The position numbers were made by a program, and so were the translations under genes. From Candidatus Pacearchaeota archaeon (GTDB taxonomy: Archaea > Nanobdellota > Nanobdellia > Pacearchaeales > GW2011-AR1): DNA of 12,489 bases. Below, in pieces: positions 2,483-12,489 of this stretch. Positions within the stretch are counted from its first letter, which is position 1. Each line of letters begins with the position of its first letter. The notes beneath the pieces are model-generated. The model did no database searches, had not been told where the DNA came from, and worked only from the letters and a program-made list of their open reading frames with translations. The DNA lies in the NCBI GenBank assembly GCA_016234025.1, contig JACQLL010000063.1, positions 1-12,489 on the forward strand, written 5' to 3'.

Positions 2483-3046
2483 ATGAAAAAGAGTTACTTA
2501 TTAGCTGCACTAACTTCGTTGGGAGTTTACTCTTCTGCAAAGGCAGACACAATTAAAATAAATGAATTTGTTGTCGACCCACAGCAAGACCACAACAGCG
2601 ACGGTTCGATAACTCCTTCCGACGAATTCTTTGAACTATACAACAACTCAAACAAAACAATCAATCTTAACAACTAGCGTCTGGACATGATAGACACAAC
2701 GCCTGCTTCAGCAACTCTTGAAGGTTTGATCAGCCCAAACGATTGGTTCCTCATTCAAAACCCTGCCGGAATGCAAAACAACGACGGCAGAATAGAACTT
2801 TACAATGAATCGGGAGATTTAACCGACGCGATAAGTTATGGTAACTGGAACGACGGAGACAAGACAGACAACGCCCCCGATGGAGATTCAACAGGTCTGT
2901 CAGATGAATCTTTGTCAAGATATCCCGACGGAGCGGACAATATAATAAAAACGTTGGCCACTCCTGGAAGAGCAAACGTTCCCGAACCTGCAACATTCGG
3001 TTTAGTCTCATTATCGGCTCTCGCTTTAAGACGACGAAAGCACTAA
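2483..3046 (+). pseudogene. Secreted lamin-tail-domain protein with PEP-CTERM tail, interrupted by in-frame TAG
   Basis: One frame runs from 2483 to 3046 and is broken only by TAG at 2675-2677 (codon 65). Residues 1-21 are a signal peptide ending AKA. A lamin-tail-type beta domain follows (INEFVVDP, EFFELYNNS, then after the stop DWFLIQNP and GRIELYN). The C-terminus is VPEPATFG, a short hydrophobic run and RRRKH, which is the bacterial PEP-CTERM sorting signal recognised by exosortases. Lamin-tail domains usually have Trp where the TAG falls (...LNN-stop-RLD), so TGG to TAG is the simplest change. The part after the stop has an ATG at 2687 but no signal peptide and no promoter of its own, so two separate genes are unlikely. 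It may be a nonsense mutation, a read error, or readthrough. It overlaps the PCNA stop by 4 bases. Confidence 0.8.
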
Positions 3047-7569: not shown

Positions 7570-7854
7570 TTACTCCTTTTTCTTGTGCGGCTTTCCAAGC
7601 TTGTGATTTATTTCTTCAACGTTTAACAAAATTCTTTTTAAGTTCTTAGAGTTATTCCTCTCTGCAATGGAACTTAAAATCTTGCTGAAGATGACAACAA
7701 GAAAATAAATTATAAAAATAACAAGTAATATTTTCGCAATATCAACCATAACAAAAACTCTTTCCATTAATTTCGGAGGAAGCGCACCAATAAAACTCGA
7801 CGCTATTTCAGTAGAATTTATGACATCGCTTAAAGATATGTTCTCTCCGACCAT
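7570..7854 (-). CDS. Small membrane protein, unknown function
   Basis: 94 residues with no recognised family. Residues about 1-36 are a mildly polar region with possible N-glycosylation sequons (NIS, NST), likely outside. A hydrophobic TM segment lies at about 37-60 (DIAKILLVIFIIYFLVVIF). The basic C-terminal part (ERNNSKNLKRILLNVEEINHKLGKPHKKKE) is likely a cytoplasmic amphipathic helix. The gene abuts the previous one with zero bases between the two stop codons and has its own TATA box 25 nt upstream, divergent from the S-layer-like gene at 7949. The layout resembles the 60-aa protein at 1802 (one TM helix plus a charged cytoplasmic helix), but I see no sequence similarity. Confidence 0.72.
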   Translation of the reverse strand: MVGENISLSDVINSTEIASSFIGALPPKLMERVFVMVDIAKILLVIFIIYFLVVIFSKILSSIAERNNSKNLKRILLNVEEINHKLGKPHKKKE

Positions 7855-7948: not shown

Positions 7949-9091
7949 ATGAACAAAACTCTTCTTTTCATTTCTGTCTTTCTCATAATAGGCGTTTTCT
8001 TTTTTTCATATGCTCAAGGAACCGGCTTGACAGGCAAGGCGACTTTAAAAGATTTTTTTAATCTCTATAAAAAATCAAATTTAGAAATCGTTAAACCTCT
8101 AAACATTACCATAACAAATCCTCTGGACAATTCAAACGTAACAACGAAATACACCTACATCAAAGCCGTTTCTGACCGTGAAGCAACATGTAAATATTCT
8201 TACACAGGCAAAAGCAAGGATTTCAATGAACCACAAATATCAACTCGACCTCAACAAATGGAAACGACTGGCGGAACCTCGCATTCACAAATCATAGAAA
8301 ACTTACAACACAATTTTCTTTACGAAGTTAAATTAAGTTGTCAAGCAGAGCCTGAAGACAAGATAACCTCCTCTTCAACAACCTCGACACAATTTCTCAC
8401 GCAAACTTTACTTCCTGTAGAAAGCCGTGGCTTATTTAATCCTCTTTATGGCGGAGCAGAGATCGGAGAAAGATACGCAGGATACATAGGAGTTCTAACA
8501 AAATCCGAGCTCAGAAATTTACTCGCCGACATAAATTTTGAATATCTCAATGAATCAAGGATAATGTCTCCCGTCATCGAAACAGGAAACAGTTTAATCG
8601 AGAACAGCACAAGCAATGGCGACTTAGAATATCCAGCCGTTTTAATAGAGGTCGGAACAAATCCGAGAGATTACGTTTACAGATATCGAATGTATTTTAG
8701 TAGGAATATTAAATTTGAATTTATGAGAGGTAAAACCTTACAAATAGTCGGGGAGAACTACACGGTCAGCCAAAATTCCACTAACGAGATGTTCATCCTT
8801 GAAAGAGAAAACTCTGTACTAACCTTCTTAAACGACCAACCCGCAATTTTAAACAATAAAACAATCAACGGAACAAAAGTCGGGTTTAAATTTGGAGGAG
8901 ATGGCGGAATCAATACAATAAGTGTGAACTTCACAATGCAGGATCCAAATAAAGACTACATCGCGGTAGGAGAGTCATATGACGATCCATTCTTCAGAAA
9001 TATCAGAATAGGTTTTGTTTCGTACAATGCAAGCCGCAACCAATATAATGAAATCTTCGGTTCAGAAATTTACGTCGGCTCTACAAAATAA
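7949..9091 (+). CDS. Secreted S-layer-like protein (paralogue 1)
   Basis: A 380-residue exported protein. It has a signal peptide (1-23, ending SYAQ), then GLTGKAT, a short motif often found just after the signal in DPANN surface proteins. A beta-sandwich (FN3/Ig-like) region covers about 48-150 (ITITNPLDNSNV...). Residues about 168-356 resemble archaeal S-layer proteins: AEIG..., VLTKSELRNLLAD, YRYRMYFSRNIKFEF, GKTLQIVGENYTV, then IAVGESYDDPFFRNIRIGF. The same set of motifs, in the same order, occurs in the next gene. Many N-x-S/T sequons suggest glycosylation. There is no C-terminal TM helix, so it would be held by other surface proteins or the lipid-attached signal region. S-layer kinship comes from motif recall and needs a profile search; the specific role is unknown. 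Confidence 0.8.
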   Translation: MNKTLLFISVFLIIGVFFFSYAQGTGLTGKATLKDFFNLYKKSNLEIVKPLNITITNPLDNSNVTTKYTYIKAVSDREATCKYSYTGKSKDFNEPQISTRPQQMETTGGTSHSQIIENLQHNFLYEVKLSCQAEPEDKITSSSTTSTQFLTQTLLPVESRGLFNPLYGGAEIGERYAGYIGVLTKSELRNLLADINFEYLNESRIMSPVIETGNSLIENSTSNGDLEYPAVLIEVGTNPRDYVYRYRMYFSRNIKFEFMRGKTLQIVGENYTVSQNSTNEMFILERENSVLTFLNDQPAILNNKTINGTKVGFKFGGDGGINTISVNFTMQDPNKDYIAVGESYDDPFFRNIRIGFVSYNASRNQYNEIFGSEIYVGSTK

Positions 9092-9128: not shown

Positions 9129-10016
9129 GTGGATAGAAAAACTATTCTTCTTATGTCCGGTATAATCATATTTATTAGTACAATAGGTTTTGTTTTGTCT
9201 GAAAATAATTTTAAAACTTTTCAAAAACAAAATATCGACGAGAACTACCTAGAAACTTTAAGAAAAGCGGCAAGCTTAGAATGTTTAAAGAATTCTCACT
9301 GTCTTGAAAATTATGAATGCTTAAGCAATAAATGTATAGAAAGTAATCAATTAACTTTCTGTCAGGACGTTAAACTTTCAATCCCAATAACTGATTTGAA
9401 AATCGGAAGTCCAATAAACGCGGATAAAAGAGTTCTCACCAGAACCGAATTACCTTATTTCTTGTCCGACGGAGAACTTGTGGAAATTATAGACAAAAAA
9501 GTAGTTGAATACTTATACTCTCCGGTGATTTTAGTCGGGGATAGCAAAATAAATCTGGAAAATCAGGATTATCTAATAAAGACCTCTTACAATTCAACTC
9601 ATAACGAAACACTATACTCCTATAAAATGTTCTTCTCGAAAGGCATAGATTTTTCAAATAAAAATCTCCAAGGACAAATATTAAGGGTTTTAGGAGATGA
9701 ATATGTCATCGGAGACGATTCAAAAAGCTCAAACATCTTCTTAATCTCCCATGAAAAGAAAATAGAATTACAAGACCAAAAAAACTTAATAGTCAATTCA
9801 GAGGTCATATCCGGAACTCATATAAATCTAAATAAAAACTCAAAAGGAGACATTTCAGAGTTTGAAATTATTTTTAACAACAGAGGAGAAGATAAAGAGA
9901 TCATAAGGTACGGAGAAAAATATACGGCTCAGGCACTTGACAGGATAGAACTTCATTTTGATAACGCCAACTTTACAGAAATTCCAGATATTAGTATTGG
10001 AGGAAGATGCGAATGA
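9129..10016 (+). CDS. Secreted S-layer-like protein with Cys motif (paralogue 2)
   Basis: A 295-residue exported protein starting at GTG. The signal peptide or anchor is about 4-24 (ILLMSGIIIFISTIGFVLS). A short Cys motif at about 52-78 (CLKNSHCLENYECLSNKC, plus C78) resembles small disulphide modules of secreted proteins. The rest is parallel to the previous gene: LKIGSPINADKRVLTRTELP, SPVILVGDSK, LYSYKMFFSKGIDF (about 162-175), GQILRVLGDEYVI (182-194) and IIRYGEKYTAQALDRIELHF. It lacks the N-terminal beta-sandwich of paralogue 1 and has the Cys motif instead, so the two share a core with different N-terminal modules. It probably sits at the surface layer. Own TATA box, 37-nt gap to the upstream gene. 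Ends in TGA at 10014-10016. Confidence 0.78.
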   Translation: MDRKTILLMSGIIIFISTIGFVLSENNFKTFQKQNIDENYLETLRKAASLECLKNSHCLENYECLSNKCIESNQLTFCQDVKLSIPITDLKIGSPINADKRVLTRTELPYFLSDGELVEIIDKKVVEYLYSPVILVGDSKINLENQDYLIKTSYNSTHNETLYSYKMFFSKGIDFSNKNLQGQILRVLGDEYVIGDDSKSSNIFLISHEKKIELQDQKNLIVNSEVISGTHINLNKNSKGDISEFEIIFNNRGEDKEIIRYGEKYTAQALDRIELHFDNANFTEIPDISIGGRCE

Positions 10017-10087: not shown

Positions 10088-11020
10088 ATGAGAAGAGAAA
10101 TAAAATATCTGATAATTTGGATGTTTGTTTTAGCCATAGCTCTGTTTAGCTTGAGCTTAGTTTCCGCGCAAACCAATGAAACCAACTATACTATGGAAGT
10201 CGAGCCAGAAATCTAAAATGAACTAAACATATCAAATTCAGTAAGAGCAGTAATATTTGTAAATTCCGCGCCGAATGAAACCCTTTATGACATAAAATCA
10301 GTTATTCTCGCAAATCTATCAGAGTCAGAATTTGTTTTGAGAGTAAATTTAGATGATACAGATTGGTTTTCTGGAGAGTTAACAAAAGAAGGTTTAGATA
10401 AATTAAGGAACAACTTTCTTATCGTTAGAATTGCTAAAGATAGGACAGGCCAGACAGTTGGAAGCGAAACAAACTACACTGCAGAAGTCGATCCGGATGT
10501 ATACGCGCAGCTGAATCATTCAAAATGGATACAGGTCATTGTAGAAGTGCATTCTAAAGAATTGATAAATGAAACTATCTCTTCTATCCCAGAAACAGAG
10601 TTTACATTTATACGTGAAATGATGTTTAGCAATGGCTTTGTGGGAGAGATAACTGCAGAAGGAATTAATATTTTGGCAAACAATTCTAACGTTACCAAGA
10701 TTCTTTTTGACAGGGTTGTCCATACAACATTACAACAAAGCCTCCCACTGATAAATGCAACAGATGTTTGGGATTTGGGCTACACAGGAGAAGGACAAAC
10801 GATTTGCGTTATCGATTCCGGAATCAATTACACTCATCCAGACTTAGGCTCCTGTGCATACACTAATAATATCAGCGATGGCTCATGTGCAAAAGTTATC
10901 GGGGGCTATGATTTTAGAAATGATGATGATCCTATAGATGATCAAGGACATGGAACTCACGTGGCTGGAATTGCAGCAGCGCAAGACGAGATAAGTCCAA
11001 ATAACATTGAAGTCAAGTGA
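10088..11020 (+). pseudogene. S8 (subtilisin-like) protease, secreted, truncated and with in-frame TAA
   Basis: One frame of 310 codons, broken only by TAA at 10214-10216 (codon 43). The signal peptide is MRREIKYLII...SLVSAQ (1-28). Two tandem propeptide-like (I9-type) modules follow: EVEPEI-stop-NELN (about 37-119) and EVDPDVYAQLN (about 132-213). Aligning the modules puts the stop opposite Tyr. The S8 catalytic domain starts at YTGEGQTICVIDSG, with catalytic D243 and H288 (GHGTHVAG). It ends after NNIEVK, so the oxyanion Asn and the catalytic Ser are absent and it cannot be an active protease on its own. The segment from 10337 on opens with a TTG and has no signal peptide, so it is not an independent secreted gene. 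The 3' end lies in a repeat shared with 12399-12489. It may be a pseudogene, silent cassette or recoded gene. Confidence 0.8.
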
Positions 11021-11063
11021 AAGTTTAAAAATAATAAATGGTTAGAATGAAAATGAGAAACAA
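10973..11063 (+). repeat. 91-bp direct repeat, copy 1 (S8 3' end + promoter + next signal-peptide start)
   Basis: Matches 12399-12489 with an offset of 1426 bases and only two differences (10992 T/C, 10997 C/T); the last 66 bases (10998-11063) are identical. It covers the end of the S8 fragment, its TGA, a TATA box and the first codons of the following gene. The 21 bases just before it differ at 6 positions between copies, so the boundary is sharp. Copy 2 reaches the window end, so the true length is unknown. Confidence 0.93.
11023..11035 (+). promoter_or_regulatory. TATA box of the I9-like membrane protein gene
   Basis: GTTTAAAAATAAT is centred about 24 nt before the ATG at 11053 but only about 9 nt before the upstream ATG at 11038, so it supports the start at 11053. 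It lies in the direct repeat. Confidence 0.6.
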
Positions 11064-11778
11064 AATAAAATATTTAATTGTCGGAACATTTGTTCTACTT
11101 CTGGCTCTGTTCAACTCGAGTTTAGTTTCTTCCCAGGAAGATACTAGCTCTATTTCTGGAACAGTGACGCCAGCAAAAGCTGGAATCAAAGTTAAAGCAA
11201 TTCAAAACTTATCCATCATTGGCGAAGCTGTAACTGACGAAAAAGGAAAGTATATAATAAACGATCTCAAACAAGGAGATTATGGTTTATTATTTGTCAG
11301 AGATGGAATAGTTTATATCTATAATGACGAAATAAACTTATACTGGGAGAGAGAAGGGGTTAAGGAAAATATTTCTGTGACAGAAGACAAGACGTCTATT
11401 GTCGATATTAACTTAATGAATGAAGCTGAAGACTATTAAGATAGATTAGTTACAATATATTTCCAAAAAGGCAGCTCTAAAGAGGAAAAGGAAGAACTTA
11501 TTAATTCCTACAATCTTGAAATTATCAAAATAATCTCAGCTACTACTTATAGGGTAGAAGTTTCAGAAGACAAAACCGCATTAGAGATGATTAAAATTTT
11601 TGAAAAGAACGCCCTAATAGAGAACTCTTATGCACTAAGAAGGGTCTTCGCTTCAGATGAGGAAGCAAAAAAAGAGACCAATGAGTTAGAAAAGAAAGAA
11701 ATAAATCTATGGATTGTAATAGTTGCTCTTTTGTCTTTATTCATAATCGCTAAACTTTTAAGAATGAAGAAAAGTTGA
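11053..11778 (+). pseudogene. Secreted/membrane protein with regulatory-like domain and I9-like domain, interrupted by in-frame TAA
   Basis: One frame of 241 codons with a single TAA at 11437-11439 (codon 129). The signal peptide MRNKIKYLIVGTFV...SLVSSQ is a clear relative of the one in the upstream S8 fragment (MRREIKYLII...), and this plus the TATA spacing chooses 11053 over 11038. Residues about 31-85 (ISGTVTPAKAGIKVKAI, then GEAVTDEKGKYIINDLKQGDY) look like a carboxypeptidase-regulatory-like beta-sandwich. After the stop, RLVTIYFQKGSSKEEKEEL to about ALRRVF resembles an I9/fervidolysin-type propeptide, which inhibits or chaperones S8 proteases. A TM helix near the end (LWIVIVALLSLFIIAKLL) is followed by basic residues. 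Its neighbours on both sides are S8 fragments, so a role as protease inhibitor or foldase is plausible (inference). If the stop is real, the anchored half has no signal peptide. Confidence 0.72.
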
Positions 11779-11792
11779 ATGAGAAAAAACAA

Positions 11793-11796
11793 GGAG
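11793..11796 (+). promoter_or_regulatory. Shine-Dalgarno (GGAG) for the second S8 fragment
   Basis: GGAG, 5 bases before the ATG at 11802, within AAGGAGAGGG. It is the only convincing ribosome-binding site in the window. It fits an operon-internal gene 23 nt after the previous stop, unlike the leaderless first genes. Confidence 0.6.
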
Positions 11797-11801
11797 AGGG
11801 T

Positions 11802-12446
11802 ATGAACAAAATACTAACATTGTGTACATTAATGGCTCTGTCAATAATAGTATTTGCTAACCTCTGCATAGCGAGCCCTACCATCGATAACAAAATTGAA
11901 TTAGTATTATAAAAACAAATAGAAGCTAAGGTTTTTATCAATTTCAAAACAGAAGATCTAATGAATAATAATTTAAAAGAGAGAAAGGTCGAAATTAAGA
12001 AAATACAGGAAAGTGGTATAAGTGATGTCTTAGATTCTGGATTCAGAATTAGGAACAGGTTTCAATTAATTCCTTCTGTCTCAGGATATATTGACAAAGA
12101 AAATCTTGAGGCTTTAAGAAATAGTTCAATTATAGAGAGCATTGAATTAGTAACCGAAGTTTATAGCTCACTAGATAAAAGCGCAGAGATTATAAATGCG
12201 ACCCAAGTGATAGAAGATCTTAATTTTACCGGAGAAGGAGTAACGATTTGTGTTGTTGACTCAGGTGTTAACTACACACACCATGCTCTTGGAGGATGTT
12301 TTGGCGAAGGATGTAAAGTAAAGGAGGGACATGACTACGTTAATAATGATGGAGATCCTATGGATGATAACGGACATAGAACGCATGTAGCGGGAATAGC
12401 AGCAGCGCAAGACGAGACAAGTTCAAATAACATTGAAGTCAAGTGA
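11802..12446 (+). pseudogene. Second S8 protease fragment, secreted, truncated and with in-frame TAA
   Basis: One frame of 214 codons broken only by TAA at 11910-11912 (codon 37). The signal peptide is MNKILTLCTLMALSIIVF...CIAS. A single I9-like propeptide follows, with the stop just before its first strand (VL-stop-KQIEAKVFINF). This is the same place as in the 10088 gene, opposite Tyr of that gene's intact second module. The S8 domain begins FTGEGVTICVVDSG, with D153 and H192. The glycine after the catalytic His, nearly invariant in S8 enzymes, is Arg (GHRTHVAG, codon AGA at 12378-12380). It ends NNIEVK like the first fragment, lacking oxyanion Asn and Ser. A ribosome-binding site and a short gap join it to the upstream gene as an operon. 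Three defects point to decay or a silent role, though the frame is otherwise fully open. Confidence 0.8.
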
Positions 12447-12448
12447 AA

Positions 12449-12461
12449 GTTTAAAAATAAT
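12449..12461 (+). promoter_or_regulatory. TATA box of the gene cut by the window end
   Basis: Same GTTTAAAAATAAT as in repeat copy 1, centred about 24 nt before the ATG at 12479. Confidence 0.5.
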
Positions 12462-12478
12462 AAATGGTTAGAATGAAA

Positions 12479-12489
12479 ATGAGAAACAA
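12479..12489 (+). CDS. Start of another signal-peptide gene (partial)
   Basis: Only the first codons (MRN) are visible. They are identical to the start of the gene at 11053 and preceded by the same promoter, so a paralogue of the I9-like membrane protein, or another secreted protein with that leader, probably begins here. Nothing more can be said. Confidence 0.4.

Follow-up and report, generated by a model that had tools for sequence, protein, structure and literature searches.

The window, i.e., the whole stretch of DNA analysed here (12,489 bases), corresponds to contig C28 of an assembly of 663,516 bases, which is distributed over 97 contigs and is 75% complete. The core genes found on this contig, encoding ArgRS, a Holliday-related endonuclease, PCNA and the primase small subunit, are all uninterrupted (0 of 4), and four of its seven exported-looking genes, by our own count, are broken by an in-frame stop codon. 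Judging by its PCNA and primase genes, the window is probably archaeal. Three of the broken genes follow one another on the forward strand. Gene 1 (10088..11020) is composed of a signal-peptide-like start, a TAA codon (10214..10216), two tandem I9-like repeats and the N-terminal part of a Peptidase_S8 domain, and ends with NNIEVK and a TGA codon. Gene 2 (11038..11778) comprises a signal-peptide-like start, a CarboxypepD_reg-like domain that scores below the cut-off, a TAA codon (11437..11439), a weakly I9-like domain and a long C-terminal helix. Finally, gene 3 (11802..12446) contains a signal-peptide-like start, a TAA codon (11910..11912), an I9-like region and an N-terminal S8 fragment carrying GHRTH, and terminates, like gene 1, with NNIEVK-TGA. 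Directly upstream of the broken genes lie two exported-looking paralogues (7949-9091 and 9129-10016; 27% identity over residues 180-360 of the first), neither of which matches a Pfam family above the cut-off; weak relatives of the 7949-9091 protein were detected in 4 of 38 other genomes.

The original prediction of exactly one in-frame TAA per gene, at 10214, 11437 and 11910, followed by 267, 112 and 177 open codons, respectively, and with no frameshift between the halves, was borne out in the assembled sequence for all three genes. The signal-peptide-like N-termini upstream of the stops were likewise recognized, here by eye. Downstream of the TAA, the gene frame ranked first of six by coding statistics in all three genes; upstream of it, the gene frame ranked first in two of the three, a reverse-strand frame scoring higher in the remaining one. 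The claim that no in-frame ATG lies near any of the stops proved incorrect for gene 3, in which an ATG occurs 16 codons downstream (11961, opening a frame of 161 aa); downstream of the TAA, gene 1 has a TTG at +40, and the first start codon of gene 2 is located at +49.

The two tandem I9-like repeats of gene 1 share 31 of 82 aligned residues, and none of 300 shuffles was as good. The Inhibitor_I9 profile matched gene 1 alone of the three, and did so below its cut-off (18.5 of 21.2 bits). In the AlphaFold model of gene 1 (pLDDT 66.5 as a whole), the second I9-like domain reached a pLDDT of about 97 and the S8 part had block means of 36-67; the top matches of the fold search were pro-subtilisin E, ProN-Tk-SP and pro-Tk-subtilisin (best E-value 0.0018, none at or below 0.001). 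The Peptidase_S8 fragment of gene 1 (10787..11002, forward strand; 48.4 bits against a cut-off of 21.8) covers profile positions 1-73 of 288 and thus the Asp and His motifs only, with D-S-G (catalytic Asp) and HGTH (catalytic His) both preserved. In an alignment of 34 sequences, for which we selected 33 homologues from 118 matches and added gene 1, gene 1 retains every invariant residue, being itself one of the rows.

The pro-region of gene 3 resembles the second repeat of gene 1 (identity at 23 of 81 residues, equalled by none of 300 shuffles), and it is because of this similarity that gene 3 is regarded as I9-like. Its Peptidase_S8 fragment (12231..12428, forward strand; 41.2 bits) again spans profile positions 1-73 of 288 and keeps the D-S-G motif of the catalytic Asp. 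Its His motif reads HRTH (GHRTH), as opposed to HGTH in the other nine sequences of a 10-sequence alignment, and the glycine that gene 3 has lost is invariant in the 34-sequence alignment. HHAL in place of HPDL in gene 3 was not retained as a further lesion, the homologues being variable at that site as well. Along residues 112-267 of the post-TAA part of gene 1, identity with gene 3 amounts to 48%; between the two genes, dN/dS is about 0.35 over 153 codons.

In both genes the Ser half of the S8 domain is missing, and homologues continue past the point at which the two fragments stop. The expectation of coherent domains downstream of the stops was not confirmed, as in genes 1 and 3 the Peptidase_S8 match breaks off at about profile position 73 of 288, right after the His motif. 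Both genes recall secreted subtilases that combine Peptidase_S8 with Inhibitor_I9, such as Tk-subtilisin and pro-subtilisin E, in their signal-like start, their I9-like propeptide or propeptides, the catalytic Asp motif and, in gene 1, the His motif; they differ from them in the absence of the Ser half, in the premature TAA and, in gene 3, in GHRTH. With PADLOC, the S8 parts matched only generic subtilase and IetS.

Gene 2 is more difficult to place. Its second part has a weak Fervidolysin_NPro-like match (E-value 0.012, 16.4 of 21 bits) and shares no sequence similarity with the pro-region of either gene 1 or gene 3 (equalled by 113 and 97 of 300 shuffles, respectively). A single-sequence model of this part (pLDDT 77.9) predicts the order strand-helix-strand-strand-helix, followed by a short helix and then a long one at the C-terminus, and prosubtilisin propeptides ranked first and fourth in the corresponding fold search, at values that are not significant (E-values 0.099 and 0.17; probabilities 0.98 and 0.97). 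The second part gave 0 matches in 55 other genomes, and the read-through product gave 0 matches among 1686 candidates of the protein collection. Since gene 2 has no homologue, we can only infer that its two parts were once a single gene. The modelled fold order and the long C-terminal helix of its second part are reminiscent of membrane-anchored I9-like (propeptide-like) proteins, from which gene 2 differs in having no sequence homologue, in the TAA that separates the signal peptide and in the non-significant fold E-value.

The terminal NNIEVK-TGA common to genes 1 and 3 falls inside a direct repeat of 150 bp, both copies of which are on the forward strand. Copy 1 (10914..11063) encompasses the last part of the S8 fragment, the TGA, what we take, by eye and against archaeal promoters, to be a TATA-like box, and the start of gene 2; contig C28 terminates inside the repeat, at the end of copy 2 (12340..12489). 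The copies differ at 15 of 150 positions (90% identity), all of them within the S8 coding part, and their last 66 nt, which run from the final S8 codons and the stop through the presumed TATA-like box to the start of the next gene, are identical. Within the repeat, 7 codons differ nonsynonymously and 5 synonymously (dN/dS 0.39 over 34 codons), as compared with 79% nonsynonymous differences under neutrality. A tandem array extending past the contig end is possible. Such an arrangement, with two truncated head-to-tail copies sharing a common border repeat whose terminal 66 bases are identical, and a contig end that would fit further tandem units, also brings to mind silent cassettes, in which the N-terminal halves would recombine with an expressed subtilase and generate surface variation. 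We consider this very unlikely, given that the common border contains a stop codon and the beginning of the following gene rather than the S8 core, that no third copy of the repeat exists in the assembly, and that identities are 48% between genes 1 and 3 and 53% over 56 residues for the sole other S8 match of the assembly, an intact full-length gene on contig C63.

With the post-TAA part of gene 1 as query, a match was obtained in 28 of 56 genomes (its own included), with no internal stop among the matches listed. All 29 other S8 loci examined (28 in relatives and 1 in the same assembly; L002, L006-L032, L034) are unsplit, and in each of them the S8 frame opens with a hydrophobic, signal-like segment, as judged by eye; none is a close orthologue. 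The protein search returned 113 matches for gene 1, the best of which by E-value was 56% identical over 55% of the query, and 5 matches, itself included, for gene 3. Named genome contigs contributed 13 loci with identities of 29-59%, and the named S8 relatives of gene 1 belong to Nanoarchaeota, Woesearchaeota and other archaea and bacteria; an affiliation of the window with DPANN seems probable. The proposed comparison of orthologues at the three codons found no orthologue close enough, with the stop not conserved in any of the 29 unsplit S8 loci and gene 2 being devoid of relatives.

The stops had also been described as lying just before an I9-like fold. This was not confirmed as it stood: the TAA codons are 8, 2 and 4 codons ahead of the first strand (genes 1, 2 and 3, respectively; strands assigned by eye), that of gene 1 marking the leading edge of the first of its two I9-like repeats, and the I9 identity of the fold is weak, especially in gene 2. 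Under random single substitutions, the chance that all three stops are TAA is about 0.11 (56/123 x 66/126 x 43/94). Under uniform placement, the chance of all three lying at most 8 codons ahead of an I9 strand is 6e-5, and at most 20 codons ahead 1e-3, with strand starts set by eye and no correction for a feature chosen after seeing the data. Little weight is given to these placement probabilities, because the feature was picked post hoc and genes 1 and 3 have their I9-like region close to the N-terminus in any case.

The set of three genes was, moreover, incomplete. A fourth interrupted exported gene (2483..3046, forward strand), overlooked in the original prediction, encodes an LTD domain and a PEP-CTERM segment, the only PEP-CTERM match in the assembly, and carries a single in-frame TAG (2675-2677) inside the LTD domain, outside the I9 pattern. 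The LTD profile aligns across this codon when it is read as X (45.7 bits versus 28.4 for the front part alone), and a further analysis likewise reported '1 TAG' within the domain. A strict coding screen of 20 contigs recovered one TAA case and the TAG case out of these four. In a loosened screen of 40 of the 97 contigs, for which the thresholds were relaxed after the strict result and the start-codon filter removes the TAG case, all three TAA cases were found together with 5 other hits in 282,311 other bases; in L088 and L092 the hit resembles a natural gene start placed 10 codons further downstream, leaving L084, L103 and L114. L084 (294-605, minus strand) is a weak candidate for a gene split by a single TAA, with a zinc-ribbon-like part downstream and all Pfam matches below the cut-off.

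Open and coding-like frames downstream of the stops, the position of the stops near a domain edge and a paralogue dN/dS below 1 would all be expected if TAA were read through, in a programmed or leaky manner, so that a short secreted leader is made alongside some full-length protein; PMC7918605 reports bacterial cases of in-frame stops with a dN/dS below 1. TAA is, against this, a normal stop codon in the sampled contigs: the 159 ORFs of at least 180 codons on 40 of the 97 contigs terminate with TAA in 81 cases, TGA in 51 and TAG in 27, and in the window TAA also terminates ORFs 2687-3046 (what follows the TAG in the fourth interrupted gene), 7570-7854 and 7949-9091. Reassignment of TAA, the commonest stop of the sample (81/159), is thus ruled out. 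The search for suppressor tRNAs revealed a stop-reading anticodon in none of the 18 tRNAs found with Rfam in this 75% complete assembly, whose missing part may encode others. One ARAGORN call of 'tRNA-Stop (tta)' (C55:6069-6153; L053 1501-1585) is in reality a tRNA for Asn (GTT) interrupted by a 12-nt intron. For the other 17, sense anticodons were derived from the loops by a stem script (16) or by ARAGORN alone (Gly, ccc); several of them have alternative loops, with no TTA, CTA or TCA among those printed. In 7 of the 18 tRNAs, extra bases after the anticodon loop would, in our reading, fit introns. A tRNA-like stretch on contig C34 (L046 2023-2093), called Cys(aca) by ARAGORN, sits beside a normal Cys(gca) and is absent from the Rfam tRNA matches.

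Nor did the RNA itself stand out. Folding of 107 nt from each TAA was comparable to that of shuffles (z 0.28, 0.96 and -1.14), as it was for the TAG case (z 0.76) and four ordinary stops (-1.00 to 1.38), and Rfam gave no match over the window. Read-through would, in addition, still produce from genes 1 and 3 a subtilase lacking its Ser half, it would be at odds with the 29 other S8 loci examined, which are unsplit, and it would not embrace the fourth stop, which is a TAG within a domain. The archaeal review PMC8211752 names selenocysteine and pyrrolysine as the demonstrated archaeal read-through cases and contains no occurrence of 'UAA', and our literature search found no report of UAA read-through or of comparable split genes in DPANN. 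Taken together, TAA usage, tRNAs, RNA folding, Rfam and the S8 truncation lend no support to the proposed read-through or recoding, which we regard as very unlikely; if true, it would mean UAA recoding in archaea. Still less probable is a lineage-wide leaky UAA, under which exported I9-like modules and subtilase halves would be produced chiefly as short secreted leaders and only seldom in a longer form, in effect a read-through switch for exported genes, and of which the literature search yielded no archaeal description.

The stops could also be assembly or base-call errors, or reflect a population polymorphism with unbroken alleles in other cells. The fragmented and incomplete state of the assembly, with a contig that ends in a repeat, is compatible with this, and the absence of frameshifts and the constraint between paralogues would fit. 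It would nevertheless be odd for three substitutions in neighbouring genes all to create in-frame stops and for none to fall in the four core genes, and two truncated S8 domains and a changed HGTH motif would be left unexplained. On balance, we judge errors or polymorphism to be unlikely, though deserving some weight.

The reading favoured here, with a probability of roughly 0.78, is that genes 1-3 form a local cluster of young pseudogenes, two of which were probably cut by recombination at the repeat. It agrees with one of the two options originally put forward, that of very young pseudogenes, and draws on the truncations, the HGTH change, the low pLDDT of the S8 part of gene 1, the unbroken relatives, the use of TAA as a normal stop and the existence of a fourth interrupted gene. 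Compared with unbroken homologues, genes 1 and 3 have both a premature stop and a 3' truncation, gene 3 has in addition lost a motif, and gene 2 has the stop only. According to this scenario, secreted subtilase genes would originally have stood beside one encoding an exported I9-like protein anchored in the membrane, and recombination around the short repeat would have severed two of the subtilase genes downstream of the His motif, placing the presumed promoter and the start of the next gene directly behind the cut. The remnants, now without the catalytic Ser half, would have been freed from selection, and each may then have gained one early nonsense change, as may the middle gene, gene 2. As read, genes 1 and 3 would yield only short exported leader peptides, and gene 2 an exported CarboxypepD-like domain.

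The dN/dS values of 0.35 and 0.39 for genes 1 and 3 imply that most of their divergence occurred under constraint, and hence that any decay is recent; taken alone, the same values would fit continued function as well. Several observations run against pseudogenes. Four nonsense lesions and no frameshift across four genes are somewhat unlike ordinary decay, four nonsense first lesions in a row having a probability of 1/16 if nonsense and frameshift are equally likely. The proximity of all three TAA codons to an I9-like strand is not accounted for by decay. Gene 1 keeps all alignment-invariant residues, dN/dS between genes 1 and 3 is below 1, and gene 2 has no homologue. As in prokaryotic pseudogenes with in-frame nonsense codons, truncated and interrupted paralogues are found here by a rearrangement-like repeat, with unbroken homologues elsewhere; the present genes differ from these in the absence of frameshifts and in having one stop each, near a domain edge.

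Two cautions follow for similar loci: a frame that stays open past a stop is not enough to infer read-through if the extended product would itself be a truncated domain, and ARAGORN can mistake an archaeal tRNA with an intron for a stop-reading one. If genes 1-3 are indeed young pseudogenes, the locus would record the ordinary loss of exported proteins in a small archaeon, and the repeat would mark a rearrangement.
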